This document shows positions 639 through 41,698 of a DNA stretch of 41,809 bases, one piece after another. A program made the translations under genes and the position numbers. The stretch spans positions 1 through 41,809 of the forward strand of contig NZ_JAFEWE010000023.1 in the NCBI RefSeq assembly GCF_017355785.1, read 5' to 3'. Origin of the DNA: Desertivirga arenae (GTDB lineage Bacteria; Bacteroidota; Bacteroidia; Sphingobacteriales; Sphingobacteriaceae). The first letter of the stretch is position 1. Each line of letters opens with the position of its first letter. The notes under the pieces were generated by a model that was not told the DNA's origin, did not search any database, and worked only from the letters and a program-made list of their open reading frames with translations.

Positions 639-646
639 GTACAGTT

Positions 647-1960: not shown

Positions 1961-1989
1961 GTACCCGTTGATATTCAGTCATTTTACTA

Positions 1990-2086
1990 TCCTTCCTTAA
2001 CCTATGTTAAGCTCCTTCCTTAACCCCGGTCAAGGCTCTTTCTTACCTCAGGTCATTTCCCTCCCCCGCCCTTTGCTACATCTTTG
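1990..2086 (+). promoter_or_regulatory. Three adjacent 23-bp direct repeats and a -7 box (copy 2 promoter)
   Basis: Three head-to-tail 23-bp repeats occupy 1990-2012, 2013-2035 and 2036-2058. Repeats 1 and 2 agree at about 18 of 23 positions and both begin TCCTTCCTTAACC; repeat 3 matches repeat 2 at about 14. About 20 bp downstream is CATCTTTG (2079-2086), close to the Bacteroidota -7 consensus TAnnTTTG, while no good -33 TTTG is seen. The layout suggests an activator binding one helix face in tandem and replacing the -33 contact. The regulator is unknown. Confidence 0.55.
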
Positions 2087-2131
2087 AAATGTCGAAACCA
2101 TCAAACACAAACACGTAAAAAACAAGAAATC

Positions 2132-2827
2132 ATGAAAACGCTAATCAAATCAATCGCAGCAGCATTCATCTCCACAGTAGTATCGGTGGCAGCCTATGCT
2201 CAGAAGCCAGCAGCCAATCTTTTAAGTCCAACAGATCATGCATTAGTAATGATCGATCATGAAAGTCAGATGGCATTCGCTACAAAAAGCATTGACATAA
2301 ATGTACTTCGCCAAAATACAGGGATTGTAGCCGGTGCAGGAAAGATCTTTAAGGTTCCAACAATCATTAGTACCGTTTTCGAGAAATCATTTGCAGGACC
2401 GGTGTTCCCCGAGATCCAGGAGTTCTTTCCTGCCGGCAATTATATCGACAGAACGACCATGAACACCTGGGAAGACCCCAAAGCACATAAAGCAATCACC
2501 GGAACAGGTAAAAAGAAAATCGTATTTGCAGGGTTGTGGACAGAGGTCTGTGTGGTAGGCCCAGTGCTATCTGCCATCGAGGAAGGTTATAAAGTGTACT
2601 TCATTTCCGACGCTAGTGGAGGTGTAAGTCAGGAAGCACATGAAATGGCGGTACAACGTATGATCCAGGCAGGAGCGCAACCTATCACTTCTATTCAGTA
2701 CTTGTTAGAGCTTCAACGCGACTGGGCAAGACAAGAAACTTACAAGCCAGTTACTGACCTGGTTAAGAAATATGGCGGCGCCTACGGCATCGGAATTCAG
2801 TACGCTCACGACATGTTAAAACATTAG
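2132..2827 (+). CDS. Secreted isochorismatase-family cysteine hydrolase, copy 2 (complete)
   Basis: A 231-residue protein. The start at 2132 is preferred over the in-frame ATG at 2084, because it begins directly with a signal peptide (MKTLIKSIAAAF to about AYAQ, residue 24) and leaves the -7 box outside the gene. The mature part is an isochorismatase-like fold of the YcaC type: candidate catalytic residues are Asp42 (MIDHES) and Cys140 (LWTEVC), with Lys117 a possible third member. Family members hydrolyse amides, imides or vinyl ethers; which one is not visible. Secretion to the periplasm is unusual for YcaC-like enzymes. It lies upstream of a porin and, further on, an amidohydrolase, suggesting stepwise breakdown of an imported amide-type compound. 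Confidence 0.9.
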   Translation: MKTLIKSIAAAFISTVVSVAAYAQKPAANLLSPTDHALVMIDHESQMAFATKSIDINVLRQNTGIVAGAGKIFKVPTIISTVFEKSFAGPVFPEIQEFFPAGNYIDRTTMNTWEDPKAHKAITGTGKKKIVFAGLWTEVCVVGPVLSAIEEGYKVYFISDASGGVSQEAHEMAVQRMIQAGAQPITSIQYLLELQRDWARQETYKPVTDLVKKYGGAYGIGIQYAHDMLKH

Positions 2828-2848
2828 TTTGATTAGTTAGGGTTGACT

Positions 2849-2874
2849 GGCAGGCTGAGAGGCCTGCCTTTTTT
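2849..2874 (+). terminator. Intrinsic terminator-like hairpin after hydrolase copy 2
   Basis: Same structure as at 613-638: a 7-bp GC-rich stem, loop TGAGAG, then six T, eight bases before the porin ATG at 2883. Confidence 0.75.
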
Positions 2875-2882
2875 GTACAGTT

Positions 2883-4196
2883 ATGAAAAATTTAATCTTA
2901 GCTTTTTCTACCATCCTTTATTCTTCTTCCTTGTATTCGCAAAGCGAACATCAGGACAGCTTAGTTGAACACCATTCCACTCCAGTTTCAATTGAAGCAA
3001 AAAAGAATAAAGAGATTATCAAACTTTCAGCAGACTTACGCTACCGCGGAGTATACCTCGAAAACGAGGATTTTGGAGAGAGTCCTCATAAATCGGAATC
3101 CTATTCCTTATTTCGAGCTCTAACTGGTGTCAGACTGGCTCCAACTAAAAATCTAAGCTTTTTTGGTCAGGTTCAGAGTAGTCTGATCGCTTCAAAGCAG
3201 TATCAGGTTAGTCCTGTTGATAGGAATGAGCTTGATCTCCATCAGGCTTCTGCCGAATTCAGCCAAGGGAAATTAGCAGTCCGCTTTGGAAGACAAGAAT
3301 TGTCTTATGGTTCTCAGCGGCTAATTTCTGTGAGAGAAATACCGAACAACAGACAGGCATTTGATGGAATAAAAACCTCTTATAAAGCCGGGAATACTTC
3401 GCTTGATCTTTTATACACCACTTATGTGAAGGCGAAGGAGGGCATCTTTGATGACGAGGCTTTTAAGGGACCTCATCTTTGGGGAGCGTACCTGACGAAT
3501 AAGAAACTTGCGGGACCTTTGGGTGCGGAACTTTATTACCTGGGATTACATAAACAAAAAGCAGCATTTGCAAATCGAAAGGGAGCAGAAGAGAGACATT
3601 CTATAGGAACAAGGCTTTTCGTTAAGAACGCGGGGATCAATTATGATCTGGAGGCTGTTTATCAATTTGGAAGCATTGGGAAAACAAGTATTTCTGCCTG
3701 GACAATATCCTCTTATCTTCAGAAGAAGTATTCCGCTGTTCCGTTAAAACCGATGGTAGAGCTTAAAACGGATGTTATCAGTGGTGATAATAACAGGGAG
3801 GGAAAATTCGGTACTTTCAATCCTTTATTTCCTAAAGGTGCATATTTCGGACTTGCTGCCTTAATTGGTCCAGCTAACCTGCTGGATATACACCCTTCTC
3901 TGGGATTGGAAATTAACCCAGACAAACTAATGATCAACCTGGAGAGCCTGTTCCTGTGGCGTTATTCTGTAAAAGATGGCGTCTACGGAGCCAACGGGGC
4001 ATTGGCTTTTAACGCGCCTGAATCGAACGAGCGGTATATAGGCTCCCAATTTGCCGGAACTCTGAATTACACCCCTATCAAAAATTTCCTGTTAAGGGCA
4101 GAGCTTACTTTCTTTAATACAGGTGATTTTTTGAAAGCTGCTAGTCCGGGTAAGGATATGGTTTTCGCAGCCATTACCACACAGATTAAGTTATAA
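2883..4196 (+). CDS. Alginate-export-family outer-membrane beta-barrel protein, copy 2
   Basis: The translated protein (437 residues) is identical to the copy at 647-1960: signal peptide, AlgE-type barrel motifs and the same C-terminal strand ending TTQIKL, a hydrophobic-aromatic end typical of barrel proteins. Having two identical copies of both hydrolase and porin would raise dosage of the whole module together. Downstream there is no porin after the third, broken hydrolase copy, which fixes the polarity of the duplication: the third copy is the old junction and the complete units lie upstream. Confidence 0.87.
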   Translation: MKNLILAFSTILYSSSLYSQSEHQDSLVEHHSTPVSIEAKKNKEIIKLSADLRYRGVYLENEDFGESPHKSESYSLFRALTGVRLAPTKNLSFFGQVQSSLIASKQYQVSPVDRNELDLHQASAEFSQGKLAVRFGRQELSYGSQRLISVREIPNNRQAFDGIKTSYKAGNTSLDLLYTTYVKAKEGIFDDEAFKGPHLWGAYLTNKKLAGPLGAELYYLGLHKQKAAFANRKGAEERHSIGTRLFVKNAGINYDLEAVYQFGSIGKTSISAWTISSYLQKKYSAVPLKPMVELKTDVISGDNNREGKFGTFNPLFPKGAYFGLAALIGPANLLDIHPSLGLEINPDKLMINLESLFLWRYSVKDGVYGANGALAFNAPESNERYIGSQFAGTLNYTPIKNFLLRAELTFFNTGDFLKAASPGKDMVFAAITTQIKL

Positions 4197-4225
4197 GTAC
4201 CCGTTGATATTCAGTCATTTTACTA

Positions 4226-4322
4226 TCCTTCCTTAACCTATGTTAAGCTCCTTCCTTAACCCCGGTCAAGGCTCTTTCTTACCTCAGGTCATTTCCCTCC
4301 CCCGCCCTTTGCTACATCTTTG
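4226..4322 (+). promoter_or_regulatory. Third-copy promoter region with three 23-bp repeats
   Basis: Exact repeat of 1990-2086: direct repeats at 4226-4248, 4249-4271 and 4272-4294 and the -7-like CATCTTTG at 4315-4322. It precedes the truncated hydrolase and is the nearest visible promoter for the amidohydrolase and DoxX genes, so it probably keeps those under the same control as the two complete units. Confidence 0.5.
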
Positions 4323-4367
4323 AAATGTCGAAACCATCAAACACAAACACGTAAAAAACAAGAAATC

Positions 4368-4576
4368 ATGAAAACGCTAATCAAATCAATCGCAGCAGCA
4401 TTCATCTCCACAGTAGTATCGGTGGCAGCCTATGCTCAGAAGCCAGCAGCCAATCTTTTAAGTCCAACAGATCATGCATTAGTAATGATCGATCATGAAA
4501 GTCAGATGGCATTCGCTACAAAAAGCATTGATAAGGCATCGGAATTCTTTACGCTCACGACATGTTAAAACACTAA
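4368..4576 (+). pseudogene. Internally deleted isochorismatase-family hydrolase (third copy)
   Basis: Identical to the intact gene from the signal peptide to base 4531, then fused to a segment resembling the gene's last ~45 bases (GGCATCGGAATTC, then ACGCTCACGACATGTTAAAACA). Nearly 500 bp including the catalytic Cys are missing, and the tail is read in the wrong frame, stopping at 4568 after 66 residues. The tail is not a clean copy: it differs from the intact genes at several positions (TTT for AGT, CACTAA for CATTAG). The product would be an exported non-functional peptide. What remains may serve mainly as leader for the amidohydrolase gene. Confidence 0.85.
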
Positions 4577-14898: not shown

Positions 14899-16605
14899 TC
14901 AGCTTCCTGCACTAAACCGTATCGTATCCCTAACCAGCTCTCTATCTTTCTTGTTAAAACTTGGTAATTCAGATACTATTTGCGGATTTACAGAAAGCCG
15001 TTCAGAGATGATTTTATAAGCGATGTCCAGAATAAAGTTTGTTAATTCATTTTGTTTGTTGTATTCATGCTTGATCACCTGAAGAAAAAGCTCCTGATCT
15101 TTAACTTGTACTTCCGTAGAATAAATATTAGAAATCTCTGTTTTGAGCGTTTTAATATCCTTTATATTATTGAAATAGTTGTTCAGACAGTTGAACGAAT
15201 CTCTGTCTGACCTCCAACCCTGTAGCAACAAAGTCTGGGCCGCCTCAATATTCTGCATTTTGTTTTTGCTAAGTAAGGCAGCTTTCACGTACTGGTGTTT
15301 CTGACTATACGCATCAACAACTTTTTCGAAGTAATGCATCGCCTCTACCCGGTTTTGCAATTCAAGGTAAAGATCTCCTACTTTTTCATTTTCATTGAGT
15401 TCTTTGTAAATCTCAATTGCTTCCGCATACATCCTCCCTTTTTCATAACAAGCTGCGGCTTTACCTTTATTAAGACAATGTTTAATATAGATCGCTGCAG
15501 CTTCTGCGTACAAGTTGCCCTCCTCCAGTGTTTCAGCAGCCTTGAGGTAATTCTTGAGCAGTTTAAGGTAAATAAACGCAGCTTTTTCGTACTCCTTTTT
15601 CTTAATTAAATCCAGGGCAGTTTGTTGATATTGAGCCTGTAACTGGTAAAATTTATCTCCAATGTAGACATTGCCTGAGCCACCGGAAACCGAAGAGCCC
15701 GCTGTTAAGGAAAAGTCCAGCCAGCGTTTTGCCCAGCCCATACCCGCAGGAGTACTTTCACCACGTGTAACGCCCCTTTCGTCTAGCGGAATTGCATACT
15801 TCAAAGCTTCCTCCGGATTATTTTTTAGAAAGTCCAGCAGGCGGTCCACCTGGTTTTGATTCCTAAATTCAAGTTCTTCAAAATCTTCTTTTAAGTTCTC
15901 TGTCCAGCTTTCATCTTTTCCAAAAATACTTTTCGAAAAAGCAGCAAGCCCCGATAAGATAGGTTTTTGAACAGCTCCTCCTTTCCCTTCAGGCTTTTCT
16001 TTAGAAAAGAGCAATTTATAAGCTTCTAATTTGGCTTTTTCAAAGAGGTTTAAAGGCTTTATTTCTTCATTTTCCTTTTGAGGGAAGCTTTCATTCTCGA
16101 GGCTTTTAATAACTTCTTCTGGTGGCGGACAAGAAACCTGAAAACTCTTAATAGATCCTGGAATTCTAATGCCGGGAACTGGAGAATCAACACGATGAGG
16201 AATTAATAAAGGAGCTTCGATATATACTTCCCATAGAATTTTTTGCCCAAGCTCAACAAGCCCAAAATCAGGATGAAAAACCAGCTTTTTATCAGATGTT
16301 AATTTACGTAACTCTGCTTCCGTGACGGATGGAAAAAGACAAGACCGTTCAGGAATATATACTAACCCGTTAACCGATTGCAAGTATTGATTTCTTCCAA
16401 TATCTAATACTTTTACATTCGAAACCACTACACAACCATAAACAGAATTCGCTGTATTTCCAGGAACAGGGAACACATCTGCCTGATTCAAATGGATGCC
16501 CATCAAATTAAGTTCTGTTAACCATTGTACCAATGATCCTCCCCGGATTAGAATTCCATTTAAAGGCCAGGCGTTTTGGTGATGTGGTTTAATTCTAAGC
16601 TCCAT
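14899..16605 (-). CDS. bpX-type protein with C-terminal TPR-like repeats (ternary system component)
   Basis: A 568-residue protein starting MELRIKPHHQNAWPLNGILI; the start at 16605 gives an 11-bp overlap with the vWA gene, typical of translational coupling, while 16632 would add nine poor residues. Residues 1 to about 150 form a beta-rich domain resembling the N-terminal domain of proteins annotated as bpX6 (number not certain). After a charged linker, residues about 325-475 are helical repeats of the TPR type (AAFIYLKLLKNYLKAAETL, AAAIYIKHCLNKGKAAACYEKG, AIEIYKELNENEKVGDLYLEL). It is the last gene of the MoxR/vWA operon and is likely the scaffold or target-recognition subunit (inference). 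Confidence 0.7.
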   Translation of the reverse strand: MELRIKPHHQNAWPLNGILIRGGSLVQWLTELNLMGIHLNQADVFPVPGNTANSVYGCVVVSNVKVLDIGRNQYLQSVNGLVYIPERSCLFPSVTEAELRKLTSDKKLVFHPDFGLVELGQKILWEVYIEAPLLIPHRVDSPVPGIRIPGSIKSFQVSCPPPEEVIKSLENESFPQKENEEIKPLNLFEKAKLEAYKLLFSKEKPEGKGGAVQKPILSGLAAFSKSIFGKDESWTENLKEDFEELEFRNQNQVDRLLDFLKNNPEEALKYAIPLDERGVTRGESTPAGMGWAKRWLDFSLTAGSSVSGGSGNVYIGDKFYQLQAQYQQTALDLIKKKEYEKAAFIYLKLLKNYLKAAETLEEGNLYAEAAAIYIKHCLNKGKAAACYEKGRMYAEAIEIYKELNENEKVGDLYLELQNRVEAMHYFEKVVDAYSQKHQYVKAALLSKNKMQNIEAAQTLLLQGWRSDRDSFNCLNNYFNNIKDIKTLKTEISNIYSTEVQVKDQELFLQVIKHEYNKQNELTNFILDIAYKIISERLSVNPQIVSELPSFNKKDRELVRDTIRFSAGS

Positions 16606-19108
16606 TTTTAATTGTATCCATAAAGGCATCAATATATCTTGAAAAAAAAGTTTTTGGCGTTAACATTTCCATTTTTGGATATTCGTCGCTTATCTCAATT
16701 GTTGCCATACCTCCTGCTTTTTCCAGCGCCCGTCTTAAATCGTTAGCCTTAGTTAAAGTAAGATCTTCAAATAATAAAACTGGCACAGTGTCTATTATAA
16801 ATATAGATTCTCCTAACCCATTTCTTCCAAATTCATTAATCAAACCGGCTATTTTTGAAGGATCAGGACCAACCTGCCTTAAAGTAATGCTCGCCTTTTG
16901 CTCTTTGTAAAAGTACTCGCTTCCTGAAAAAGCAGCGTGGGTTGCCACTCCCAAGGCAGCATCTAAAACCGCAGGAATGTAAATATCCGGAATTTGAACA
17001 TTGCTACTTTTTAAAATAAACAAACCGGAACGCTTAACCTCAACAGAACTTCCATCCTTAAAGACAAACCTATTCCTGCTATCAAGGCTAGCTTCAGCTT
17101 GCACATCAAGAAAGCCGCTTTGGTCAAGTTTAATTACCCCTCCATTATTAATATGAAGTTCATGAACGTTAAAAACTAAGTTATTTGTTTGATTGATAAA
17201 CACACGGTTGACGTTCTTCAGAATAACTGATTGATACGCCATCTTTTGAGAGATGTCAGACAACTGCTTTTTCCGCTCTTTTTCCTTATCGAGAATGAAT
17301 TTTGGAAATACGCTATTCTTGCTAACCTCACCTTTCAAGTCGATGGTCCAGTTATTATCCGAGGATATATAGTAGAACAAATCATTGTGAAATAAAAAGT
17401 TATTCTGCGAACTTTTAAACTGTTCAAACTTGGATGTAGCAGATGCACCTGTTTTTAGATTGAGAATAAAGATCTTTCTATCCTGAACCCTGAACAATAG
17501 CAGAAAATATTCATTGAATGAGCTAAATCCTATTTCACTAAAGGCAGGGGCGAAAGGTAGGTTTTCTGCAACCAGTTCCCATCCTCGTTCGTGCTTCTTT
17601 GACCATTTATCAAAAAACCTGTAGACCTTCTTATCCGAAGAAATTTGAAAGATCGCTCCATTCCCCGTAATAAATGTCTTAACATTTTGTGGAGTCCGAA
17701 GAAGAAGGGGCAGGTTAGCAAAATACCTATTCTGCTTTTTAGGGCCAGGCATAGATCTCCACAGCTGTTGTAAGGGAAGTTGGAACTCCTGGATATGCTT
17801 CTTATTTTTCTGCTGACGTTTTGAGAGAGAAACTTTCCCCTCCGAATCTATGGCAATCCAATAGTTGAAAAAGTCGTGATATTCACTCATCAACCTTTGC
17901 ATCTCCTCCGATCGCTGGCTATCTACAGAGGAAATAAAAAACACCTCCTTTTTAACGCTTTTATCCGAAAATCTCTCGATAAAGCGTTGAATTCCTTTCA
18001 CGGGATGCAAACAGCCACTCAAAATTTTGCTACTTTCTATCAATTCATGAACGCTGCCGAATGAAAGCTTATAGAAATCTTCACCAACAGCATAAGCAAC
18101 GCAATCCATATCCGTTTTTGGGTGTTTTGCTATCGCCAGCATTATTGCATAAGCTATTGCTTTGGGAGTGCCCCAGTTTTTCAGGGAAACATCAATGAGC
18201 AAAAACCGCTGCAGTTTATTATTTTGAGGAGGAACCTCCCGGTTAAGATACAAGGCTTCATTATTGGCTAATCTTGATAAAAATAAGAGATCATCATTCG
18301 CAAATTCAGATATGAGGAGTTTATCGAAGTCGCCTTTGTTAGTCAGATCAGAAACGCCTCCAATAGGTTGTTCGCTTGGTAATGAATTATGGAAAGGTAT
18401 AGTTAGTGCGCTCCATAAGTGTCGGATGAGCACGGCGATAGAATGAGTTTGTTGATCAGCTATCCATTGATCAATTAAGCTTTCCGGCTTTACAATTGGA
18501 TTTGTGATCTTAAGATCGGTGATTACTTCTTCACCCAACTCAGCTAATGAAGCCATTCTTTCCAGAATCACTTCGGCATTCGGGAACCTTCTTTCAAGTA
18601 AACTGAGGGTCCGGATCTCCTGTATAATTAGCTCTCCTGTTAAAAACCCCTTTTCAACTAGCTTGTCTTTAGCAGAAGGATCCGAAGTATAATCACTAAC
18701 TATTCTTCTTGATTTGCTGATAGAAACTATATTATGGCAGGATTCGAAAATTGCTTGCAGTAAAAGCAACCGCTTTTCGCCTTCTTTATACTGAGAAGGC
18801 AATTCTGATAAAAGTTTACAGAAGGAAACAGCACGAGCAAGGTCACTATCTTCGGTGGTATTAAGAGCTTTTAACAGAATACTATATACAACGTCTATAT
18901 TACTTGATCCTTCGGCGTTGGTAGCGATTACTGCAAGCAATAAAGACCCAAACGGAGGTAATCCCTGCGGACTAAGCTTTCGCAGCATCGCGATGATAAA
19001 ATCACGGTAGGCAATAGTACTCGAATTAGGAATAGCCAAAACTTCTGTACCCTCTTCCCATTGCCAGAAGTAGTCGTGGTAAGATTGAAAGTATCTGTTG
19101 AAATTCAT
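16595..19108 (-). CDS. vWA plus beta-propeller protein of a MoxR ternary system
   Basis: An 837-residue protein. Residues 1 to about 290 are helical and unassigned. Residues about 300-430 are a von Willebrand A domain with RFLLIDVSLKNWG as the MIDAS strand; the motif reads D-x-S-x-K, so the second serine of DxSxS is missing. Residues about 460-690 are short beta-repeats (TFITGNGAIFQISSDKKVYRF, KIFILNLKTGAS, FLFHNDLFYYISSDN), read as a beta-propeller. The C-terminus (about 765-810) has LTKANDLRRALEKAGGMATIEI, resembling a ribosomal L7/L12 C-terminal-like domain. The order vWA-propeller beside a MoxR gene is the diagnostic of this system class. Confidence 0.78.
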   Translation of the reverse strand: MNFNRYFQSYHDYFWQWEEGTEVLAIPNSSTIAYRDFIIAMLRKLSPQGLPPFGSLLLAVIATNAEGSSNIDVVYSILLKALNTTEDSDLARAVSFCKLLSELPSQYKEGEKRLLLLQAIFESCHNIVSISKSRRIVSDYTSDPSAKDKLVEKGFLTGELIIQEIRTLSLLERRFPNAEVILERMASLAELGEEVITDLKITNPIVKPESLIDQWIADQQTHSIAVLIRHLWSALTIPFHNSLPSEQPIGGVSDLTNKGDFDKLLISEFANDDLLFLSRLANNEALYLNREVPPQNNKLQRFLLIDVSLKNWGTPKAIAYAIMLAIAKHPKTDMDCVAYAVGEDFYKLSFGSVHELIESSKILSGCLHPVKGIQRFIERFSDKSVKKEVFFISSVDSQRSEEMQRLMSEYHDFFNYWIAIDSEGKVSLSKRQQKNKKHIQEFQLPLQQLWRSMPGPKKQNRYFANLPLLLRTPQNVKTFITGNGAIFQISSDKKVYRFFDKWSKKHERGWELVAENLPFAPAFSEIGFSSFNEYFLLLFRVQDRKIFILNLKTGASATSKFEQFKSSQNNFLFHNDLFYYISSDNNWTIDLKGEVSKNSVFPKFILDKEKERKKQLSDISQKMAYQSVILKNVNRVFINQTNNLVFNVHELHINNGGVIKLDQSGFLDVQAEASLDSRNRFVFKDGSSVEVKRSGLFILKSSNVQIPDIYIPAVLDAALGVATHAAFSGSEYFYKEQKASITLRQVGPDPSKIAGLINEFGRNGLGESIFIIDTVPVLLFEDLTLTKANDLRRALEKAGGMATIEISDEYPKMEMLTPKTFFSRYIDAFMDTIKNGA

Positions 19109-33588: not shown

Positions 33589-33710
33589 TTCTTTTCCATG
33601 ATTTTGTCAGGTTGTGTAGTTTGTTAAATAGACGGCTGACTTGTTTATATTGTGCCCACTTAAAAGCAATTCCGCATTGAGCAGCACGAATGTAATCAGA
33701 AAGCAGAAAA

Positions 33711-33803
33711 CTTCGAGAACCACATCGCCGGGCATAATTTAAACCAGGTGTTACCTGAAGTGCTTCTTCTACCAGCATTAGCAACAAGGTGTTGTTATGC
33801 CCG
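33711..33803. repeat. Dispersed repeat B1 with flanking inverted repeat
   Basis: CTTCGAGAACCACATC, then CGGGCATAATTTA (33711-33741), also occurs at 36940-36971. The CGGGCATAA at 33729-33737 pairs perfectly with TTATGCCCG at 33795-33803, making a long imperfect hairpin just downstream of the 54-residue gene. It resembles a cassette-end recombination site in layout, but no attC consensus could be fitted. Confidence 0.5.
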
Positions 33804-34772: not shown

Positions 34773-35148
34773 TTAAAAGTTGGAATAGTCGATTTTCAGC
34801 TGCCATTCTATGGGATTGGGGAAAATATCAGAGGCCAACCTTTTATACAACATAAATGTGTTGACCCAGTCAGCAAAATGAGCCTCACTTAATTCCCCAT
34901 TCTCTAAATTCCTCATCGCTCATTCTTACCAATTCCAGCGGCTGCTTAGCAAATATGTAATAAGTGTTTTTTAAATATTCTTGTAAGCTGTCAGTAGTCG
35001 CCAATTCTACTAGGTCATATTCATAAGTAAGGTTTGATTGTGGCGTGTTCAAAATTGCATAAGTGTGAATAACGCCAAGAATATACTCAAGCTTATCTAA
35101 TTGATATTCATTGCTTTCACTGCTTTGGATACGTGTTCTTCTTTTCAT
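34773..35148 (-). pseudogene. Frameshifted small array gene (unknown function)
   Basis: The ATG at 35148 is the one embedded in junction repeat R1. The frame runs 87 residues to EEFREWGIK and stops at 34885. In the neighbouring frame the text continues ENGELSEAHFADWVNTFMLY, then KRLASDIFPNPIEWQLKIDY and SNF to a stop at 34773. Removing one T from the run at GAATTTAG would give DEELENGELSEAHFADWV, a sensible continuation. So this is a ~124-residue protein cut by a 1-nt insertion. No family was recognised; the acidic helical make-up resembles immunity-type proteins. The stretch 34506-34772 upstream of the GNAT-like gene holds no gene, only a TGGGCATAAC motif at 34571-34580. Confidence 0.7.
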
Positions 35149-35169
35149 CGTTTTTTGAGACAGTACCTC
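35146..35169 (-). repeat. Junction repeat R1 (supplies gene start)
   Basis: Minus strand GAGGTACTGTCTCAAAAAAC followed by GATG. It fills the gap between the ADP-ribosylglycohydrolase stop (35172) and the next ATG (35148), leaving only two extra bases. Its 24 bases are identical to R2. Confidence 0.85.
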
Positions 35170-35171
35170 AG

Positions 35172-36131
35172 TTATGACCTGTATTTTTTTTCCAGTTTCT
35201 CACCCAGCTCAATTATGTTTTCCATTCTAGCTAAGGAGACAATCCAAACCTCAGGCATTTCTTTCCGTCCATAATACAACCCCGCCAATCCGCCCGTAAT
35301 CGCTCCATTGGTATCTGTGTCGTGCCCAAAGTTTATAGCTGTGAGTACTGCACTTTCAAACGATTCCGTATTGAGGAAGCTCCACAGGCTGGCCTCCAGA
35401 GACTCTATTACATAACCACCGGACAAAATGGTTTCTTTCTTAGCCTCTCGAATGTCGTTCTGTACGATTCGAGCAAAATGGGTCTTTTCCGCGTCCGAGA
35501 AATTCATTTCCTCCCAAAGCTGGTTAATGTCGCATCGGGTTTTCTGGTACGCGGAATTCTTGTCTTGCTCAATGAGAAGGTTCTCAGCCAGATTCAAATA
35601 AATCATACAGCTCATTGCGGCCCTTATGTGCCTGTGGGTTAGAGCGGAATTTTCCCAGATGATCTCAAATTGTTCCTTCAAACCTTTATCCTTTACCTCA
35701 AACAAAAGAGGAAGGATTCTCATAAGAGAGCCGTTGCCGTTGTCAAACTCTTCCGCTTCATATTTCAGCAACCTTAATTCTGCAGGGTCTTCTCCGTTTA
35801 AAATCTTTGCAAGACGTGTGATCGCTCTATTCGTGGTGACGCCAATGTCGAAAATTTCGTTTCGTGCTGTCCAATAGGCATAATTTCTCCATTTGATAAA
35901 ATTGGCGGCTGTTGTATTCAAGCTATATCCTGCATGTAATGATTCAGCCAGGCAAAAAGTCAGTGAACTATCGTCCGACCATGTTCCTGCTGGTTGATGG
36001 TGCGTCCCGTATCCCACCATGCCTTTAGCTGGTCTCGCAACCATTTCTTCCCTTGATAAGAATTCGTACGGAACACCTAGTGCATCTCCAATTGCGACGC
36101 CCAGTAACAAATCAATTGCGTTTCCTTTCAT
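35172..36131 (-). CDS. ADP-ribosylglycohydrolase family protein
   Basis: A 319-residue protein of the DraG/ADP-ribosylglycohydrolase family. N-terminal LLLGVAIGDALGVPYEF, then the first metal site TWSDDSSLTFCLAESL (about residues 50-64) and the second metal site GHDTDTNGAITGGLAG (about 267-282), so both di-magnesium sites are intact. Family members remove ADP-ribose from Arg (or other residues) on proteins or nucleic acids. Inside an immunity-like array it could reverse the action of an ADP-ribosyltransferase toxin; that family is a recognised immunity type, but no toxin is seen here. Repeat R1 follows its stop by two bases. Confidence 0.9.
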   Translation of the reverse strand: MKGNAIDLLLGVAIGDALGVPYEFLSREEMVARPAKGMVGYGTHHQPAGTWSDDSSLTFCLAESLHAGYSLNTTAANFIKWRNYAYWTARNEIFDIGVTTNRAITRLAKILNGEDPAELRLLKYEAEEFDNGNGSLMRILPLLFEVKDKGLKEQFEIIWENSALTHRHIRAAMSCMIYLNLAENLLIEQDKNSAYQKTRCDINQLWEEMNFSDAEKTHFARIVQNDIREAKKETILSGGYVIESLEASLWSFLNTESFESAVLTAINFGHDTDTNGAITGGLAGLYYGRKEMPEVWIVSLARMENIIELGEKLEKKYRS

Positions 36132-36260
36132 TTATATTTTTATTAAGCCTGCCGTTGCGGCTATTTTCCCTATATCTAATTTTTTTCCAACTTCAAATTT
36201 TGCTTATCCCATCGTTTCATGACATCCTTAGGCTTTGTGAACGTCAAAGGATAGAATAAC

Positions 36261-36671
36261 TTACCTATGCTCGAATGTCCTATTTCTTGTAAACCAAGCA
36301 TAGCTTCTAAAGTGTATCAACAAAGCAGCTAAGTACCCTAAAAAGAAATATAGATCGAATACGATATCATTATAGTAGTCAATAAACTTTGTCAAAGGAA
36401 AAAATAGCATTGCAATTATCGGAACTAGTAACCACAGCCCTTTATTTGTACTGAGAAACTCCTTAATCCTCTTTAAAGGATTGATATATTTAACTAGCAA
36501 AACAGTAGTTGCAATTAACGCACACATTAATGGGTAGTAATAAACAAATATTCCGACGATAAAGCTATCCGCATTGGGTCGTTGGATTTTAAAATACAAT
36601 ACGAATAATAATAACCCGATTACTGCGGATATCAGTAGTGCAAAAAGAGCCGATACTACTTTTTGAGGCAT
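36261..36671 (-). CDS. Small integral membrane protein, unknown function
   Basis: A 136-residue protein with four hydrophobic segments: about residues 7-28 (LFALLISAVIGLLLFVLYF), 40-62 (VGIFVYYYPLMCALIATTVLL), 79-98 (LWLLVPIIAMLFFPLTKFI) and 104-122 (IVFDLYFFLGYLAALLI). The C-terminus is short and basic. No family was recognised. Some immunity proteins against pore-forming toxins are small membrane proteins of this kind, which fits the location, but nothing proves it. Confidence 0.65.
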   Translation of the reverse strand: MPQKVVSALFALLISAVIGLLLFVLYFKIQRPNADSFIVGIFVYYYPLMCALIATTVLLVKYINPLKRIKEFLSTNKGLWLLVPIIAMLFFPLTKFIDYYNDIVFDLYFFLGYLAALLIHFRSYAWFTRNRTFEHR

Positions 36672-36917
36672 AGATTCGCTTTTAGTCCGGCTATACTGTT
36701 AATGGCTCCTTGAGAAATCACATCCCAAAAAATTGAAGTTGCAATCATAGCTGAAATGGAGGGAGTCCTAAAGTTCATTGAAATAAGATTTAGAGCTAAA
36801 TGTAAGTGTTTAGTTATTGAATAAAAAGGTCAATTTACTTTAATGCAACGAATTATGTGGATCACACCTTTGATCCTATATAAGTTAAGGAGTTGAATCT
36901 AAAAAGCTCCGGTATAT

Positions 36918-36934
36918 TATCGTTTTCTGAGATC
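36918..36934 (-). repeat. Junction repeat R0 (ATA variant)
   Basis: Minus strand GATCTCAGAAAACGATA. The start-codon position reads ATA, and no ORF follows; it lies next to B2 in a gene-less stretch. Confidence 0.6.
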
Positions 36935-36939
36935 AGATT

Positions 36940-36990
36940 CTTCGAGAACCACATCATCCGGGCATAATTTAATCATTGTGTTATGACGGG
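36940..36990. repeat. Dispersed repeat B2
   Basis: CTTCGAGAACCACATC and CCGGGCATAATTTAA match B1 almost exactly. CGGGCATAA (36959-36967) faces an imperfect TTATGACGGG (36981-36990), so the hairpin is shorter than at B1. Confidence 0.5.
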
Positions 36991-37007
36991 CAATTTTAGT
37001 TCGCTGT

Positions 37008-37367
37008 TTAAGATTGTCGCCAATCAAGAATATTAGTTAGCATTCCCTTATTCCAACAGTCTAACGTTGTGCTTGCTGTTATTGAAAAGATATCTTTATT
37101 GTTTTGAGCGATGGTTTCTAAAGTCAAAACTGCTTCTTGTTCTAAGGTCGCTAATAAGGCTGTCGAAGTCCAAATTTTAACGGAGTCGTTGTTATAATTA
37201 AGTAATTGATAAAATGCTTCGCGGGTTTCACTGTTACCTTTTTTAATCTGGTCAATTGACTTCATCAAACTTTTGTGAATCTTGTTCCCTTTTTTTGAAT
37301 CACCATTCAAAATGCATTCGCCATATTCACCAGCTAGTCTTATGTATTCTTGGATTAGATCGGTCAT
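37008..37367 (-). CDS. DUF2019-like protein, possible immunity protein
   Basis: A 119-residue all-helical protein: LIQEYIRLAGEYGECILNGDSKKGNKIHKSLMKSIDQI, then FYQLLNYNNDSVKIWTSTALLATLEQEAVLTLETIAQ. The pattern of a short N-terminal helix pair followed by HEAT-like repeats (NNDSVKIWTSTALL) matches DUF2019 proteins, which are common in immunity-gene arrays. The upstream sequence before its ATG (GTAAAATAAAAAACAATG) is A-rich and faintly resembles the junction repeat. Confidence 0.7.
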   Translation of the reverse strand: MTDLIQEYIRLAGEYGECILNGDSKKGNKIHKSLMKSIDQIKKGNSETREAFYQLLNYNNDSVKIWTSTALLATLEQEAVLTLETIAQNNKDIFSITASTTLDCWNKGMLTNILDWRQS

Positions 37368-37467
37368 TGTTTTTTATTTTACTTGCCATAACGTTTAGGC
37401 ATTGTAAAGATGGCGGTTAAAAAGTAGGTCATTGTCATACTGTACAAAGCTTTATTAAATGTCGGAA

Positions 37468-37484
37468 ATTTCGAGAACCACGTT
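37468..37484. repeat. Partial dispersed repeat B3
   Basis: TTTCGAGAACCACGTT matches the first half of B1 and B2 with two changes. The GGGCATAA half is missing. It lies between the DUF2019 gene and the next array gene. Confidence 0.35.
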
Positions 37485-37578
37485 ACTCACAATTTTTCCA
37501 GAGGTAATGTTAACTGCTGCCAATTTATCCGTCTTTAGATTTTCTTGGATTCTAGGCCTTTTGAATGATTAAAAAACT

Positions 37579-38175
37579 TTATGAGGTTTGATAAATTTGA
37601 ACAGCGAGCTTATGCTTGTCAGAATAGAACAAGTAGATCTCTTTCTCGCAATTATCGCTGCAAATTTTTCCAGAGCTATATTGAGCTATAAAAGTCATTC
37701 TATTGCCTTCTGGGTCAAGTGGCGTTTCATCTTCTTGCTCCCAACGAGGTTCACCACCCGGTACAATAAAATTCATCCAATACTTTTTTTTCTTCGTTTT
37801 GTAATTATTCTTGGAGATGGTGTATGTTTCTTTCGTAAGAACAAACCACTCTTCCCATTCAGGGCTTAAGTCGAAGTAACGAAAGTCGGTAAGAAATTTA
37901 TATTTTCCATTAACAACCTGAAAACCAATCGTATTATCTTTACAATACGAATTGAAAAATTTTGCTGTCTCGGTATTATATGGATCTTCATTAAATTGAA
38001 GCAAATGAATATGCCCTTTCCATCTTCTATTAACAGAAGAGAGGTCAACAGAACAAACTGGAAAAAGCAAATTGCTATGTTCCTCAATATTTTCCAAAAA
38101 CACTTCTGAAGCTTCTGGAAAAGGCTTTATAGCCCCAAATGGGAGTCCGAGGAACCGGGAAATTTTTTTTAGCAT
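37579..38175 (-). CDS. Hypothetical protein with YwqG/DUF1963-like end
   Basis: A 198-residue protein. The C-terminal part reads GGEPRWEQEDETPLDPEGNRMTFIAQYSSG followed by IYLFYSDKHKLAVQIYQ, resembling the end of DUF1963/YwqG-like proteins, where W-x-Q-x-D...P-x-D-P-x-G-N-x-M-x-F-I-A-Q recurs. The N-terminal part is not recognised. It starts 71 bp after the small ORF opened by repeat R2. Confidence 0.6.
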   Translation of the reverse strand: MLKKISRFLGLPFGAIKPFPEASEVFLENIEEHSNLLFPVCSVDLSSVNRRWKGHIHLLQFNEDPYNTETAKFFNSYCKDNTIGFQVVNGKYKFLTDFRYFDLSPEWEEWFVLTKETYTISKNNYKTKKKKYWMNFIVPGGEPRWEQEDETPLDPEGNRMTFIAQYSSGKICSDNCEKEIYLFYSDKHKLAVQIYQTS

Positions 38176-38246
38176 TATACTCTATTATCAATAAGTCAGT
38201 CTCCAAATGTCACTTTCGGTTGTCTTCTTTTGGTTGAGGTTAACGA

Positions 38247-38315
38247 TTAGCTAAACGCACTGCGTTTATTTCTTAAATAAGAACTGTAAATTAGGTTCAA
38301 GATATAAAATTTCAT
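38247..38315 (-). other. 22-codon mini-ORF opened by repeat R2
   Basis: The ATG of repeat R2 starts MKFYILNLIYSSYLRNKRSA and stops two residues later. It could be a leader peptide or the severed start of a lost cassette gene. Its length and hydrophobic-then-basic make-up do not match any known protein. Confidence 0.35.
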
Positions 38316-38336
38316 CGTTTTTTGAGACAGTACCTC
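38313..38336 (-). repeat. Junction repeat R2
   Basis: Identical over 24 bases to R1, including the start codon. It lies two bases after the stop of the membrane protein gene at 38339-38737, but its ATG opens only a 22-codon ORF. Confidence 0.85.
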
Positions 38337-38338
38337 GA

Positions 38339-38737
38339 TTAGCTCTTTCTGCTATTTATCGGTCTAAATTTTCTCAATGCAAAGAAAGTGGCCATGACTA
38401 ACAAGAAAGATATGAGATAATAAGCTTCGCCAAGAAAAGAATCGGGTATAGTTTTCATGATGATGAAATAAGATAGTATTCCTATAATAAATCCAATAAT
38501 TAACCCTCTTAAACCATGTATAAATGAATTCTTGTTGGTCATTAAAGCGAAGAAAAAAGAGCTAAGAAGGCAAATAGATTCAAATCTTGCAAAATATCCA
38601 TTGTCTTTCCCGCTATAGAATCTCATGTCGTAGGCGGAAATACCTTGATTTATGTATCGAGCTACGATAACGGCAAGTATAAGAAAGGCTATAATCTTTA
38701 CTCCACTTTTCATAAAACGTCTGTCAGGATTTTGCAA
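38339..38737 (-). CDS. Small integral membrane protein, unknown function
   Basis: A 132-residue protein with four membrane segments: about residues 12-29 (VKIIAFLILAVIVARYI), 50-66 (ICLLSSFFFALMTNK), 73-92 (LRGLIIGFIIGILSYFIIM) and 101-122 (GEAYYLISFLLVMATFFAL). The start may be 38737 or the ATG eight codons later (MKSGVKIIAF, 38713), which gives a tighter membrane-protein N-terminus. No family was recognised. Repeat R3 lies about 80 bp upstream. Confidence 0.6.
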   Translation of the reverse strand: MQNPDRRFMKSGVKIIAFLILAVIVARYINQGISAYDMRFYSGKDNGYFARFESICLLSSFFFALMTNKNSFIHGLRGLIIGFIIGILSYFIIMKTIPDSFLGEAYYLISFLLVMATFFALRKFRPINSRKS

Positions 38738-38817
38738 TTACAGCTAACATCTGGCTAATCTAACCTTTGTTTATTTCCAAAATTACGAAGTTTCTCAACC
38801 TGAAGTCTAAAAGATCC

Positions 38818-38836
38818 TATCGTTTTGTGAGACTAA
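38818..38836 (-). repeat. Junction repeat R3 (ATA variant)
   Basis: Minus strand AGTCTCACAAAACGATA, directly after the lipoprotein gene stop (38839). One A is C and the start codon is ATA; the next gene starts about 80 bp further on. Confidence 0.7.
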
Positions 38837-38838
38837 CT

Positions 38839-39567
38839 TTAGTTCCATAAACCGCTAATTTTCAAGAATGGCCGGAACTCCTCCTTAGTAAAAAAAAGCT
38901 CGATTATAGAGGTTTGGTAGTTAGGACCTTTAAACAAAACCTTAATCCCCTTACTATCAAGCAAAAAATTCGGATCGGGCATCTGAGATTCCCAATCTGA
39001 TCGATGAAATTCCGATTCCTTTAATCGATCTTCTAATTTACTCATAACAATACTATCTACAGGGGATCTCTGATTTTCGATAAACAGATCATGGAAATTT
39101 ATAAGCATTCCTGTCTGAGTGTTAAAATTTAGAGTCTTAAAGTCGCGAAAGCCATGCAATGCATTTTCTCCATATTCATAAGAAGTAATGAAGCAGCTAA
39201 CCAGGGAATCTTTAGCAAAGGGAATAGTTGACTCAATTTCGTATTCCGTTGACCCTTCTGCCTCTAATAAAGCCGTCTTATAGTTTCGAAGGTTGCCCCT
39301 AATCGTTTCGTTAATTCTATTCTCAATATGTTTGCTTGAAAGTGCGATCTCCTGCCATTTTAGTACATAAGATCGGTTACCCGATAACTTCAATCTCTCG
39401 GAAATATCAAGAACACGGATTGAATCTCGAACAGGACCTTCTTTGGCTTCAGGTAAGGATAGCGTATCCATGTTCGACGGAATTGTACTCTTGGATGATT
39501 GGCTCTTCTTCTCGCCACAAGAAATTACCAATATAATGACAAGGGCTGATAGAATAAATTTGATCAT
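38839..39567 (-). CDS. Lipoprotein, DUF3298/RsiV-like
   Basis: A 242-residue protein with a lipoprotein signal (MIKFILSALVIILVISC; lipobox cysteine at residue 17) followed by a polar linker (GEKKSQSSKSTIPSNMDT). The C-terminal half resembles DUF3298: SCFITSYEYGENALHGFRDFKTLNFNTQTGMLINFHDLF, like the ...G.AHG......FD..TG..L.L.DLF signature of RsiV-type proteins, known in Bacillus as anti-sigma factors that bind lysozyme. Function here is unknown. It is one nucleotide after the mini-ORF at 39569-39643. Confidence 0.7.
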   Translation of the reverse strand: MIKFILSALVIILVISCGEKKSQSSKSTIPSNMDTLSLPEAKEGPVRDSIRVLDISERLKLSGNRSYVLKWQEIALSSKHIENRINETIRGNLRNYKTALLEAEGSTEYEIESTIPFAKDSLVSCFITSYEYGENALHGFRDFKTLNFNTQTGMLINFHDLFIENQRSPVDSIVMSKLEDRLKESEFHRSDWESQMPDPNFLLDSKGIKVLFKGPNYQTSIIELFFTKEEFRPFLKISGLWN

Positions 39568-39568
39568 C

Positions 39569-39643
39569 TTACTGGAATGCTACTCCTCTTTTACGTATAA
39601 AGTACTGGTTGGTTTTAGTTATCTGAGGGCTAATCCTTTCCAT
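39569..39643 (-). other. 24-codon mini-ORF opened by repeat R4
   Basis: Begins at the ATG inside repeat R4 (MERISPQITKTNQYF) and stops TAA-G-ATG, one base before the lipoprotein start. The tight spacing fits translational coupling, so the mini-ORF could work as a translated leader. Chance is not excluded. Confidence 0.4.
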
Positions 39644-39658
39644 CGTTTTTTGAGATTA
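39641..39658 (-). repeat. Junction repeat R4
   Basis: Minus strand AATCTCAAAAAACGATG. Its ATG opens the mini-ORF before the lipoprotein gene. Confidence 0.8.
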
Positions 39659-39678
39659 GTTCTCTCTCTACAACTTCT

Positions 39679-40323
39679 TTATACTCGACCAATTGGTAGA
39701 TAAGGCGTAAGATGATGAAAATAGATATGCTGGTCCCAGGGGAATAACTCTTGGGAAAGTCTTTCGTCTTCCAAAAGTTCTTCCAGGGATATGGAATCGT
39801 TATAACCATAATTTCCATTCATATCAATTACATGGTCTATATCACCTTCTTCATTATAAAAGAAAACTAAACGATCATCAGGTTCATCATCATTAGAATC
39901 ACCATAAAACTGTTTCTTGCCGCCTGCTTTAAGCTTTCCGGTTAAAAGATCAAATTGGCAGTCACAGATTAGTTGATGATTTTCATCATAGACATCAATC
40001 CCTTTGTATTTTAATCCTATCTTCGATTTGTAATCTTCTCTATCCCATTGATTAAAGGATCCAGAGGATATTTTATTAAAGAAAAGCGAGCAGAATGTTT
40101 TTTCAGGATATCTATCAAAGTGGGAATTTAGTATCACCTGCTTATCGTCTTCTAGAGAAAGAAAGTAATGTACGCTTCCTATGCGGTGCTGAGACAGAAC
40201 AAGCTCGACTTTCATTACCGCCGTATTTTCAACTGTTATCTTTCTGTAGAAGTCAGAGGCCAAAGCTTGATCTGGAGAAATTTCCTTCCCAAAACTATTT
40301 ATAAACTTGATGTGTGTTGTCAT
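39679..40323 (-). CDS. Hypothetical protein (214 aa)
   Basis: A soluble acidic protein, not recognised. Strand-rich N-terminal half (MTTHIKFINSFGKEISPDQ, then AVMKVELVLSQHRIGSVHYF), then GIDVYDENHQLICDCQFDLL and a segment GDIDHVIDMNGNYGYNDSISLEELL. The ending FPWDQHIYFHHLTPYLP is distinctive and may help family searches. Size and location fit an immunity protein. The start codon is 31 bp downstream of repeat R5. Confidence 0.6.
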   Translation of the reverse strand: MTTHIKFINSFGKEISPDQALASDFYRKITVENTAVMKVELVLSQHRIGSVHYFLSLEDDKQVILNSHFDRYPEKTFCSLFFNKISSGSFNQWDREDYKSKIGLKYKGIDVYDENHQLICDCQFDLLTGKLKAGGKKQFYGDSNDDEPDDRLVFFYNEEGDIDHVIDMNGNYGYNDSISLEELLEDERLSQELFPWDQHIYFHHLTPYLPIGRV

Positions 40324-40352
40324 AGGTTCTGATTTCTAGCAGCATATGAAGA

Positions 40353-40369
40353 TATCGTTTTTTGAGACT
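40353..40369 (-). repeat. Junction repeat R5 (ATA variant)
   Basis: Minus strand AGTCTCAAAAAACGATA, 11 bp after the stop of the gene at 40380. The next gene starts 31 bp downstream. Confidence 0.8.
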
Positions 40370-40379
40370 GCTCTCTAGC

Positions 40380-40748
40380 CTAGCAGCCGTAGGCAATAAA
40401 GAGCCTGCTGTTGTTCCTCATTGTCGAAAGCAAAATTTGCTTTAGCGCATCATAAGCTTCTGCCTCCATTGCTGGGACCTTATCTTGAACTGAAAGGACT
40501 TGCTCATAAAGCTCTCTTATTCTCTTACACTCCCATTTGGTGTGATTAAAAAATCCTGAGCGATTATACCAATGGAACAATAGGCTATCAGGGTGAGGAT
40601 TTTCAACCATCGGAATTAGCTCAACAATAGTATAAAAATAACCGTACCACAGCTCTAGCTCCTCTATTATCTCATTCGATATTTTTCTCTGGCGGAAAAC
40701 AATGTTAGGATCGCTTTCAAACCCAGAATACAAATCTATCTTCTTCAT
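40380..40748 (-). CDS. Hypothetical protein (122 aa), start supplied by repeat R6
   Basis: A helical protein, not recognised: SNEIIEELELWYGYFYTIVE, then KWECKRIRELYEQVLSVQDK and EAEAYDALKQILLSTMRNNS. Its ATG is the last codon of junction repeat R6, so initiation depends on the repeat. No motif points to an enzyme. Confidence 0.65.
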   Translation of the reverse strand: MKKIDLYSGFESDPNIVFRQRKISNEIIEELELWYGYFYTIVELIPMVENPHPDSLLFHWYNRSGFFNHTKWECKRIRELYEQVLSVQDKVPAMEAEAYDALKQILLSTMRNNSRLFIAYGC

Positions 40749-40763
40749 CGTTTTCTGAGACTA
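40746..40763 (-). repeat. Junction repeat R6 (supplies gene start)
   Basis: Minus strand TAGTCTCAGAAAACGATG, with one A changed to G like R0. The previous gene's stop (40825) is about 60 bp away, the widest gap in the array. Confidence 0.8.
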
Positions 40764-40824
40764 ATCCTTAATTAAGGGAAATGCTACTTAGTTAGTTTTT
40801 ATAATAATATTTCCCTAATAAGGA

Positions 40825-41166
40825 CTATAACCATCTCCTTAAAAATTGGCTCCATGAAATTATAATTCCCTCAAAATCTTTAGTTGGAATCACGATTGCA
40901 TTATCATTATTCCAAGCGTTCCTTAGAATCGTGCGAGTTTTATTAAATTCTGCCCATACCGGTGCTGTGTCTACTTCTCCTTCCTCTTTCAAATTATTCA
41001 AGACACTTGCAATCTCGGGAAGTAACCAACCCTCTATCTCTGACTTAGATAAGGCTAAGAGATAACTAACGATAAGATCAGGTCCAGTGGGAATATCCTC
41101 TATTTTCCACATAGATACCTTTTTAGTGAATCTCAATCCGTACTTGTCTAAAATTTGCTTATTCAC
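40825..41166 (-). CDS. Hypothetical protein (113 aa)
   Basis: Begins MNKQILDKYGLRFTKKVSMW and continues with a helical centre (IVSYLLALSKSEIEGWLLPEIASVLNN) and a basic end (SWSQFLRRWL). Not recognised. Its first 14 residues resemble those of the divergent ORF at 41735, suggesting related genes. It starts 7 bp after repeat R7. Confidence 0.55.
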   Translation of the reverse strand: MNKQILDKYGLRFTKKVSMWKIEDIPTGPDLIVSYLLALSKSEIEGWLLPEIASVLNNLKEEGEVDTAPVWAEFNKTRTILRNAWNNDNAIVIPTKDFEGIIISWSQFLRRWL

Positions 41167-41173
41167 TGTTACT

Positions 41174-41190
41174 TATCCTTTTTTGAGATA
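41174..41190 (-). repeat. Junction repeat R7 (ATA variant)
   Basis: Minus strand ATCTCAAAAAAGGATA; CG is changed to GG and the start codon to ATA. The real ATG follows 7 bp later. Confidence 0.7.
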
Positions 41191-41207
41191 CTAATGCCGT
41201 TAATTAT

Positions 41208-41684
41208 TTAAAAAGGATTTCTACCCTGCTTTACTCTTTCTACGTTGTTTTCAACAAACTTTGACAGCGACTTTATTACTAAAGATATCCAATGCTCGCG
41301 ACTTGGGTGATCAGAGTAGTGTGCCTCGTAAACTGGTGGGTCTTCACCTTCATCGAGATATACAAATAAGAACTGGTCAAATGTATTGTAAACATCAATT
41401 GCGAAAAATGGTCTGTCGATTTTCCTGACATCATCTCGTAAATTTTCTCTAACAAATTTCTGCAACTCTTCTTGGGATTCATTTAATCCTTTATCCAAAA
41501 AATAACAGTCCTTGCCCGCTAGATGAAGTAATTCCCTCAGGGCGATTGGAAAAGGCTTGCTGCTATTGTACTTTATCTCAAGTTCCTCTATTTCAAGTAT
41601 TGACATTGGAATATTAGGGGAAGACCAGTGTGTTCCTTTCCTAACCGAGTTTTCTTCTAGCGACTTCAGATAAATAATTTGCAT
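41208..41684 (-). CDS. SMI1/KNR4 (SUKH) family protein, start supplied by repeat R8
   Basis: A 158-residue protein with SUKH features: ILEIEELEIKYNSSKPFPIALRELLHLAGKDCYFLD at the N-terminal half, then DRPFFAIDVYNTFDQFLFVYLDEGEDPPVYEAHYSDHPS and a C-terminal helix SLSKFVENNVERVKQG. These proteins usually protect against nuclease-type toxins. As the outermost minus-strand gene here, it may be the first of the array's transcription unit. Confidence 0.78.
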   Translation of the reverse strand: MQIIYLKSLEENSVRKGTHWSSPNIPMSILEIEELEIKYNSSKPFPIALRELLHLAGKDCYFLDKGLNESQEELQKFVRENLRDDVRKIDRPFFAIDVYNTFDQFLFVYLDEGEDPPVYEAHYSDHPSREHWISLVIKSLSKFVENNVERVKQGRNPF

Positions 41685-41698
41685 CGTTTTTTGAGATG
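41682..41698 (-). repeat. Junction repeat R8 (supplies gene start)
   Basis: Minus strand ACATCTCAAAAAACGATG, the outermost copy seen. It lies in the short gap between this array gene and the divergent ORF at 41735. Confidence 0.8.

Follow-up and report, generated by a model that had tools for sequence, protein, structure and literature searches.

The 41,809-bp contig NZ_JAFEWE010000023.1 of Desertivirga arenae (C15, hereafter the window, meaning the whole stretch of DNA analysed and a complete contig of a 43-contig, 6.19-Mb draft assembly) carries an array of small genes separated by a short repeat, here called the core. The core is probably where a small serine recombinase of the Gin/resolvase class carries out crossover, with the genes between repeats serving as exchangeable cassettes. 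Homology blocks between arrays start or stop on the core, cores are enriched downstream of the recombinase gene, the core consensus is one-armed, the two-base centres are largely uniform within arrays, and cassettes are shared between arrays; these are direct observations.

The window array consists of eleven minus-strand open reading frames (ORFs) of 87-319 amino acids at 34885-41684 and, the window being a complete contig, therefore runs off its right end. The pattern GTCTCAAAAAACGATG, allowed up to three mismatches, matched nine times in the window, whereas 100 shuffles averaged 0.57 matches and never reached nine. All nine cores are intergenic and on the minus strand, and in the eight copies with an upstream gene in the window the core starts 5-74 nucleotides past the preceding stop codon. 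Five carry ATG and the other four ATA; the next ORF starts at the core ATG in three copies (35146, 40746, and 41682), and the ATG of cores 38313 and 39641 opens a frame of 22 or 24 codons alone, as read by eye. The conserved part, RTCTCA(A/C)AAAACG-A(T/A), spans 15 nucleotides, and the G of ATG falls outside it. An earlier note on this DNA had described nine minus-strand copies at these positions, always in gene-to-gene gaps and often near stops, five of them with ATG (three starting genes) and four with ATA, and this description was borne out. The copies are as follows.

35146..35161, minus strand: core with half-site 35149-35161 and centre AT 35147-35148, its ATG starting ORF 34885-35148 (pattern match)
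36918..36933, minus strand: core with centre AT 36919-36920, where a BLAST match to the C34 array stops at 36919 (pattern match and BLAST)
38313..38328, minus strand: core with ATG but no long ORF (pattern match)
38818..38833, minus strand: core, TCTCACAAAACGAT variant (pattern match)
39641..39656, minus strand: core with ATG but no long ORF (pattern match)
40353..40368, minus strand: core (pattern match)
40746..40761, minus strand: core whose ATG starts ORF 40380-40748 (pattern match)
41174..41189, minus strand: core, AAAAAAGGAT variant (pattern match)
41682..41697, minus strand: core whose ATG starts ORF 41208-41684 (pattern match)
36919..37394, minus strand: block 88.7% identical to C34:1214-1689, with its downstream end at the core centre in both arrays (BLAST)

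At 33696-33753, the window also holds 58 bp that resemble a cassette 3′ end (80% identity to the end of the 36918 cassette) without a recognisable core, perhaps an eroded former junction.

The last block in the list, 477 alignment columns long, is shared by the window and a second array at the start of contig C34 of the same genome, and in each of them it stops at the second base of the core centre. Contigs C34 and C11 are identical over their first 127 bases, apparently the length of an assembly overlap, and diverge from the base after the core centre, and further homology blocks start on the core at C34:2812 and C11:2760. Among 21 homology blocks between array loci (one row trimmed by hand and one overlapping row dropped), 8 of 42 ends fall on a core in both partners, compared with a random mean of 0.011 and with none of 2000 draws reaching 8; an end was counted as on the core from 3 nucleotides before its start to 17 after, with cores of up to two mismatches. 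Because the core is common to all sites, a block end cannot be placed more finely than the core border. These coincidences support the core as a recombination seam, which was one of two explanations offered by the earlier note. The other, a mobile translation-initiation unit, fails because only 15 of 67 collected cores make an ATG and cores ending in AA cannot.

Copies elsewhere in the genome also gather in arrays. The pattern RTCTCANAAAACGATR with up to one mismatch gave 20 matches, compared with 11 for a reversed control pattern, and the clustering that the earlier note had suggested looking for was found: 16 lie in or beside arrays (nine on C15, five on C34, and one each on C5 and C11) and four are scattered. 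The C34 array has cores at 114, 647, 1676, 2353, 2813, 3739, and 4685 (up to two mismatches); the start of C5 has an exact core at 676 and a degenerate one at 122 (three mismatches), and the start of C11 has cores at 114 and 2761. Scanning relatives with the pattern alone is noisy, with matches in 131 of 399 genomes of the family, taken to be Sphingobacteriaceae, and it yielded one clear further array, in genome G179, with nine cores on a single strand. Core pairs occur in G297 and G174, with a recombinase beside the former. Core-to-core distances have a median of 1,449 bp and a range of 320-4,379 bp (43 intervals). Two sets of matches were rejected as arrays: exact-pattern matches in 2 of 60 relatives, which are single and look like chance, and nine matches in G256, eight of which are dispersed identical copies, perhaps of an insertion sequence. 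No core within one mismatch was found in the 20.6 kb covered of each of the Aureispira and B. fragilis plasmid relatives.

The G179 array is headed at its 5′ end by a gene for a 203-amino-acid serine recombinase, and the window genome encodes an 85% identical enzyme (C5:2576-3199, minus strand) at the head of the C5 cores. With the C5 protein as bait, 41 of the 399 family genomes matched at E≤1e-45, this genome included; 40 recombinase loci were gathered, and the 39 not flagged by the pattern search were tested for cores. A 13-mer core with up to one mismatch occurs 33 times downstream on the recombinase strand (346 kb) and 0 times upstream on it (324 kb), compared with three downstream and three upstream on the opposite strand, and permuted cores gave a mean of 0.38 and a maximum of 3 in 60 permutations. 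At least one downstream core is present in 16 of the 39 loci and at least two in 12. The 13-mer replaced a 14-mer once the first scan had revealed CGAA variants; on the same loci, the original 14-mer found 15 cores downstream, none upstream, and two on the opposite strand. Locus L156, from a different family, Cesiribacteraceae, has a recombinase followed by cores 4.3 and 6.2 kb downstream.

All six scanned recombinases match PF00239; HTH_7 scores above the cut-off in two of them and narrowly misses it in one. The nearest solved structures by sequence are those of a DNA invertase, 4m6f (E 8e-47), and 3uj3, both of phage Mu Gin. The arrays are likely served by a small serine recombinase of the Gin/resolvase class. 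A tree of 42 recombinases shows clustering of the array label, which changes 8 times vs 13.9 when shuffled, and the labelled enzymes do not form one clade.

Some recombinase loci have features of their own. Locus L155 has no core in the 1.3 kb covered downstream of its recombinase. This enzyme shares 90% identity with that of C5, and its gene directly follows MobC/relaxase-like mobilisation genes (183-2842, read by eye); elements of this type may be mobilisable. A further serine recombinase of the window genome, G000:C38:171838-172395 (locus L244), has a core-like two-armed site upstream and could act on the arrays in trans. The Aureispira plasmid locus L230 has cas1/cas2/cas6 and TIR genes next to two serine recombinases whose starts are 0.7 kb apart, the first recombinase with the upstream two-armed site AGTTCAAAAAAACG-AC-CGTTTATGTGAACT.

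The 67 cores give the consensus (T/A)RTCTCA(A/C)AAAACG-A(T/A), which reads as a 13-bp half-site, RTCTCAAAAAACG, followed by a 2-bp centre, AT or AA. Array cores show one strong arm only. Their right flank has G/C at offset 1 in 39 cores, A/T at offset 4 in 64, and A/T at offset 5 in 65, and is otherwise free, a bias that faintly mirrors the left arm across the A(T/A) centre. Two-armed sites of 13+2+13 bp with a core-like arm lie ~115-150 bp upstream of some recombinase genes, including the following.

L197 (array-bearing), upstream of the recombinase: two-armed site GTCTCATTATACG-GT-AGTATATTGAGAC, arm with three mismatches to the core
L223 (no array seen nearby), upstream of the recombinase: two-armed site GTCTCACAAAACG-TC-AGTTTTGTAAGAC, arm with one mismatch
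C38 (no array seen nearby), upstream of the recombinase: two-armed site GTCTCACGTAACG-TA-GGTTTTTTGAGAC, arm with one mismatch

The array-bearing loci L198, L200, L201, and L220 share the upstream arm GTCGCA(T/G)AAAACG, which has two mismatches to the core, and the 3,825 bp of the upstream zone contain 13 copies of the motif AAC[CG]NN[CG]GTT vs 42 in 758,417 bp elsewhere, related loci being counted apart. Because of the flank mirror and these core-like two-armed sites, which are evidence of uneven strength, the core can be interpreted as one strong arm plus a centre. The second centre base agrees in 208 of 218 within-array pairs, a count that pools the four array contigs of this genome, vs 110 when shuffled, and none of 10000 shuffles was as high; with this genome left out, 55 of 65 pairs agree vs 29 expected, a level again reached in 0 of 10000 shuffles.

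In the mechanism we propose, the strong half-site would form the 3′ end of the preceding cassette and be followed by the crossover centre, AT here and AA in other lineages, and the other half of the dimer site would be whatever DNA begins the next cassette, carrying the faint mirror of the strong half. The recombinase, whose gene heads the array at its 5′ end and shares its strand, would itself perform the exchange. Since the cores of an array point one way (all nine do so here), exchange between two of them would delete or insert the intervening DNA without inverting it. Cassettes would travel either as circles or when two replicons fuse, and an existing core would be the entry point for new ones. 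The proposal can be tested directly through the centre-base rule and the seam positions.

Several results weigh against this interpretation. As regards the site, two-armed sites beat shuffles (no more than 5 of 100 shuffles equally good) at just 9 of 45 loci, their centres, often GT, are unlike the AT or AA of the cores, and the site of the C5 recombinase itself, GTCCACTTTAACG-AA-CGATAAAATGGAC, matches the core half-site poorly, with 6 mismatches in 13 bases. The arm with one mismatch next to the C38 serine recombinase has no core within one mismatch in 9.5 kb. Ten within-array centre pairs are discordant, and when both this genome and G179 are left out, concordance falls to 19 of 29 pairs vs 13.3 expected (294 of 10000 shuffles). 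As regards the enzyme, 23 of the 39 recombinase loci have no downstream core within one mismatch (5 of the 39 span less than 5 kb downstream); among 11 loci from other families, a downstream core is found in L236 alone and L233 has one upstream instead; and in G174 two exact cores lie 2.4 kb from each other, but its genome has no PF00239 match. The assembly also contains no join between the window array and a recombinase: the arrays on C15 and C34 both extend past the ends of their contigs, and a pair of near-identical recombinases, at the end of C11 and the start of C12, stops 23 bp short of the contig ends. Finally, a tyrosine recombinase lies near four arrays, array loci having been checked with relatives of six query enzymes.

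This last point bears on an alternative modelled on recombinase-associated acquired interbacterial defence (rAID) arrays, in which a tyrosine recombinase would assemble the arrays and the serine recombinase would be a bystander. rAID arrays are described as having short co-oriented orphan-immunity genes, conserved intergenic motifs, and a tyrosine recombinase, with a value of 41% used for guanine-plus-cytosine (GC) content (PMC12247911). The window array, with short co-oriented genes and 36.9% GC, has similar traits and falls under that value. In L201, L210, and L214, a 400-amino-acid tyrosine recombinase frame starts upstream of the serine gene, 1.4-1.6 kb away, and in G179 it is located at the far array end (L126:8677-9900). 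At E≤1e-100, this protein has copies in 232 of the 399 family genomes and none in the window genome, and the five PF00589 matches in this genome include none on an array contig, the upstream array ends being unassembled. The ten genomes with the best-scoring copies besides G179 (82-96% identity), namely G319, G395, G217, G355, G401, G177, G295, G133, G173, and G277, gave 0, 1, 0, 1, 0, 0, 0, 0, 0, and 0 core matches with a pattern that misses AA-ending cores. A tyrosine recombinase is unlikely as the array enzyme and the alternative as a whole is improbable; a tyrosine integrase beside the serine gene or at the array end in L201, L210, L214, and G179 suggests that, in some genomes, the array is part of an integrative island.

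The core might also be a fixed element for regulation or processing, carried along with the cassettes, the seams arising by ordinary homologous recombination at short repeats. Its intergenic position close after stops, where it sometimes supplies a start codon, would fit such an element, but neither 33 downstream vs 0 upstream same-strand cores at one type of recombinase nor a largely uniform centre is predicted by it, and a sixteen-base repeat is very short for RecA; we give this account little credence. We give less still to the idea that the arrays are relics, in which resolvase-type deletions between dispersed sites left direct-repeat junctions without any capture of cassettes. Several recombinase genes carry stops, several loci have one or two cores only, and no cassette-specific insertion point was found, all as relics might be expected to look; against this, related cassettes lie between cores in different genera and the genes fit from one core to the next, both of which are easier to explain with gain as well as loss. 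A crossover site for a serine recombinase remains the preferred explanation.

Array genes fit from core to core, and those of the window are as follows.

41208..41684, minus strand: cassette gene, 158 amino acids, with a 46% identical relative between cores in the G297 array (sequence comparison)
40825..41166, minus strand: cassette gene, 113 amino acids, no family (Pfam/NCBIfam search)
40380..40748, minus strand: cassette gene, 122 amino acids, with a 32% identical relative between cores in the G179 array (sequence comparison)
39679..40323, minus strand: cassette gene, 214 amino acids, no family (Pfam/NCBIfam search)
38839..39567, minus strand: cassette gene, 242 amino acids, no family (Pfam/NCBIfam search)
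38339..38737, minus strand: cassette gene, 132 amino acids, no Pfam family (Pfam search)
37579..38175, minus strand: cassette gene, 198 amino acids, no family (Pfam/NCBIfam search)
37008..37367, minus strand: cassette gene, DUF2019, with a 90% identical copy in the C34 array (Pfam and comparison)
36261..36671, minus strand: gene in cassette 35146-36918, 136 amino acids, no Pfam family (Pfam search)
35172..36131, minus strand: gene in cassette 35146-36918, ADP-ribosylglycohydrolase (Pfam search)
34885..35148, minus strand: gene after the last recognised core, 87 amino acids (ORF list)

Pfam cut-offs were reached by 3 of 20 proteins from the arrays of this genome and their edges (DUF2019, ADP-ribosylglycohydrolase, and DUF3575), with one further match, to Lipocalin_4, below the cut-off, and NCBIfam matched none of ten array proteins, seven of them from the window. 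For the 158-amino-acid protein, sequence searches gave nothing and the structure prediction was poor, with a mean predicted local distance difference test (pLDDT) score of 47.6. In the G179 array, Pfam named five of ten proteins (acyltransferase, ABC transporter, glyoxalase, and beta-lactamase fold, with RelE below the cut-off), and there was no clear defence gene among these ten. Proteins from other arrays were selected by hand, and no defence enrichment is claimed from them: PADLOC matched five of ten in one set (LmuC, LmuB, REase_II, MTase_II, and PDC-S15) and three of ten in a second (capP-like, PDC-S04/Fic, and PDC-S01), and Pfam named eight of ten, including Abi_C, TIR-LRR, and PIN_8 and also beta-lactamase-fold, esterase, and thioredoxin proteins. 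Cargo types in other arrays include Lamassu, restriction-modification, TIR-LRR, Abi, and Fic. The earlier note's proposal of immunity-gene cassettes remains conjectural for the window, where most genes match no family, and is in keeping with some relatives, where defence genes are present; its idea of a cassette border gains from the relatives of window cassettes lying between cores in another genus and from the clustering of cores downstream of a site-specific recombinase.

Away from the array, a 1,831-bp block is repeated exactly at window positions 465-2295 and 2701-4531, with a period of 2,236 bp. The repeat unit holds an alginate-export-like gene, and because positions 1-59 match its end, the tandem array may continue off the left end of the contig. 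Positions 16595-19108 encode a bpX0/bpX1 protein of a MoxR-vWA-beta-propeller ternary system.

The arrays may amount to a separate gene-capture platform, a "serine integron," in which a Gin-class enzyme that needs one strong half-site and a 2-bp centre stocks anti-phage and small uncharacterised genes in Sphingobacteriales and some other Bacteroidota, and we regard the chances of this as evenly balanced. If one strong half-site and a centre suffice, cassettes with almost any 5′ sequence would be joinable. To our knowledge, known gene-cassette arrays use tyrosine recombinases, and the titles and opening lines of abstracts among the listed matches from open-licence literature describe no serine-recombinase cassette array. 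If the proposal is true, the core and recombinase together would provide a searchable signature for cassette and defence genes of Bacteroidota that are still unannotated, and it would become a mechanistic question how one strong arm serves enzymes of a class believed to require two-armed sites.

Among known systems, rAID arrays of Bacteroidales are similar in their short, co-oriented, low-GC genes, intergenic motifs, and adjacent recombinase (PMC12247911), and differ in being defined by a tyrosine recombinase, whereas the array-associated enzyme here is a serine recombinase. DNA invertases such as Gin and Hin include the nearest solved structures to the array recombinase by sequence, and the presumed Hin half-site sequence agrees with the core in 9 of 12 bases; multi-site DNA invertases, Min and Mpi, also exist. 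The two hix sites on which Hin acts are 26-bp palindromes that flank an invertible segment (PMC2427008). This two-site palindromic inversion differs from the one-armed cores in direct orientation around whole genes found here. The dif/pdif modules of Acinetobacter likewise place gene modules between short recombination sites. Those sites are two-armed and are used by XerC and XerD, whereas serine recombinases and one-armed cores are found here. Staphylococcal cassette chromosome (SCC) elements share a serine recombinase and tandem insertion at direct repeats; their recombinases are large and carried by the element itself, and SCC has no arrays of single-gene cassettes.

A similar plan is that of integrons, in which IntI and attC arrays organise co-oriented small-gene cassettes in tandem, with one site per junction and the recombinase at one end. 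The arrays described here likewise have co-oriented tandem cassettes, a site at each junction, a recombinase at the array end, and many uncharacterised genes. They are not integron/attC arrays: no integron integrase (IntI, TIGR02249) exceeded the 265-bit cut-off in the draft contigs, the best scoring 75.9 bits; the nine 96-nucleotide window sites show no attC-like single-strand fold (z from -1.0 to +1.0 vs shuffles); and the core AAAAAAC/GTTTTTT, by eye, fits neither form of the R boxes, GTTRRRY and RYYYAAC. The enzyme here is a serine rather than a tyrosine recombinase, and its gene is co-oriented with the array. If the proposal is true, the integron plan evolved more than once, in one case independently on a small serine recombinase.

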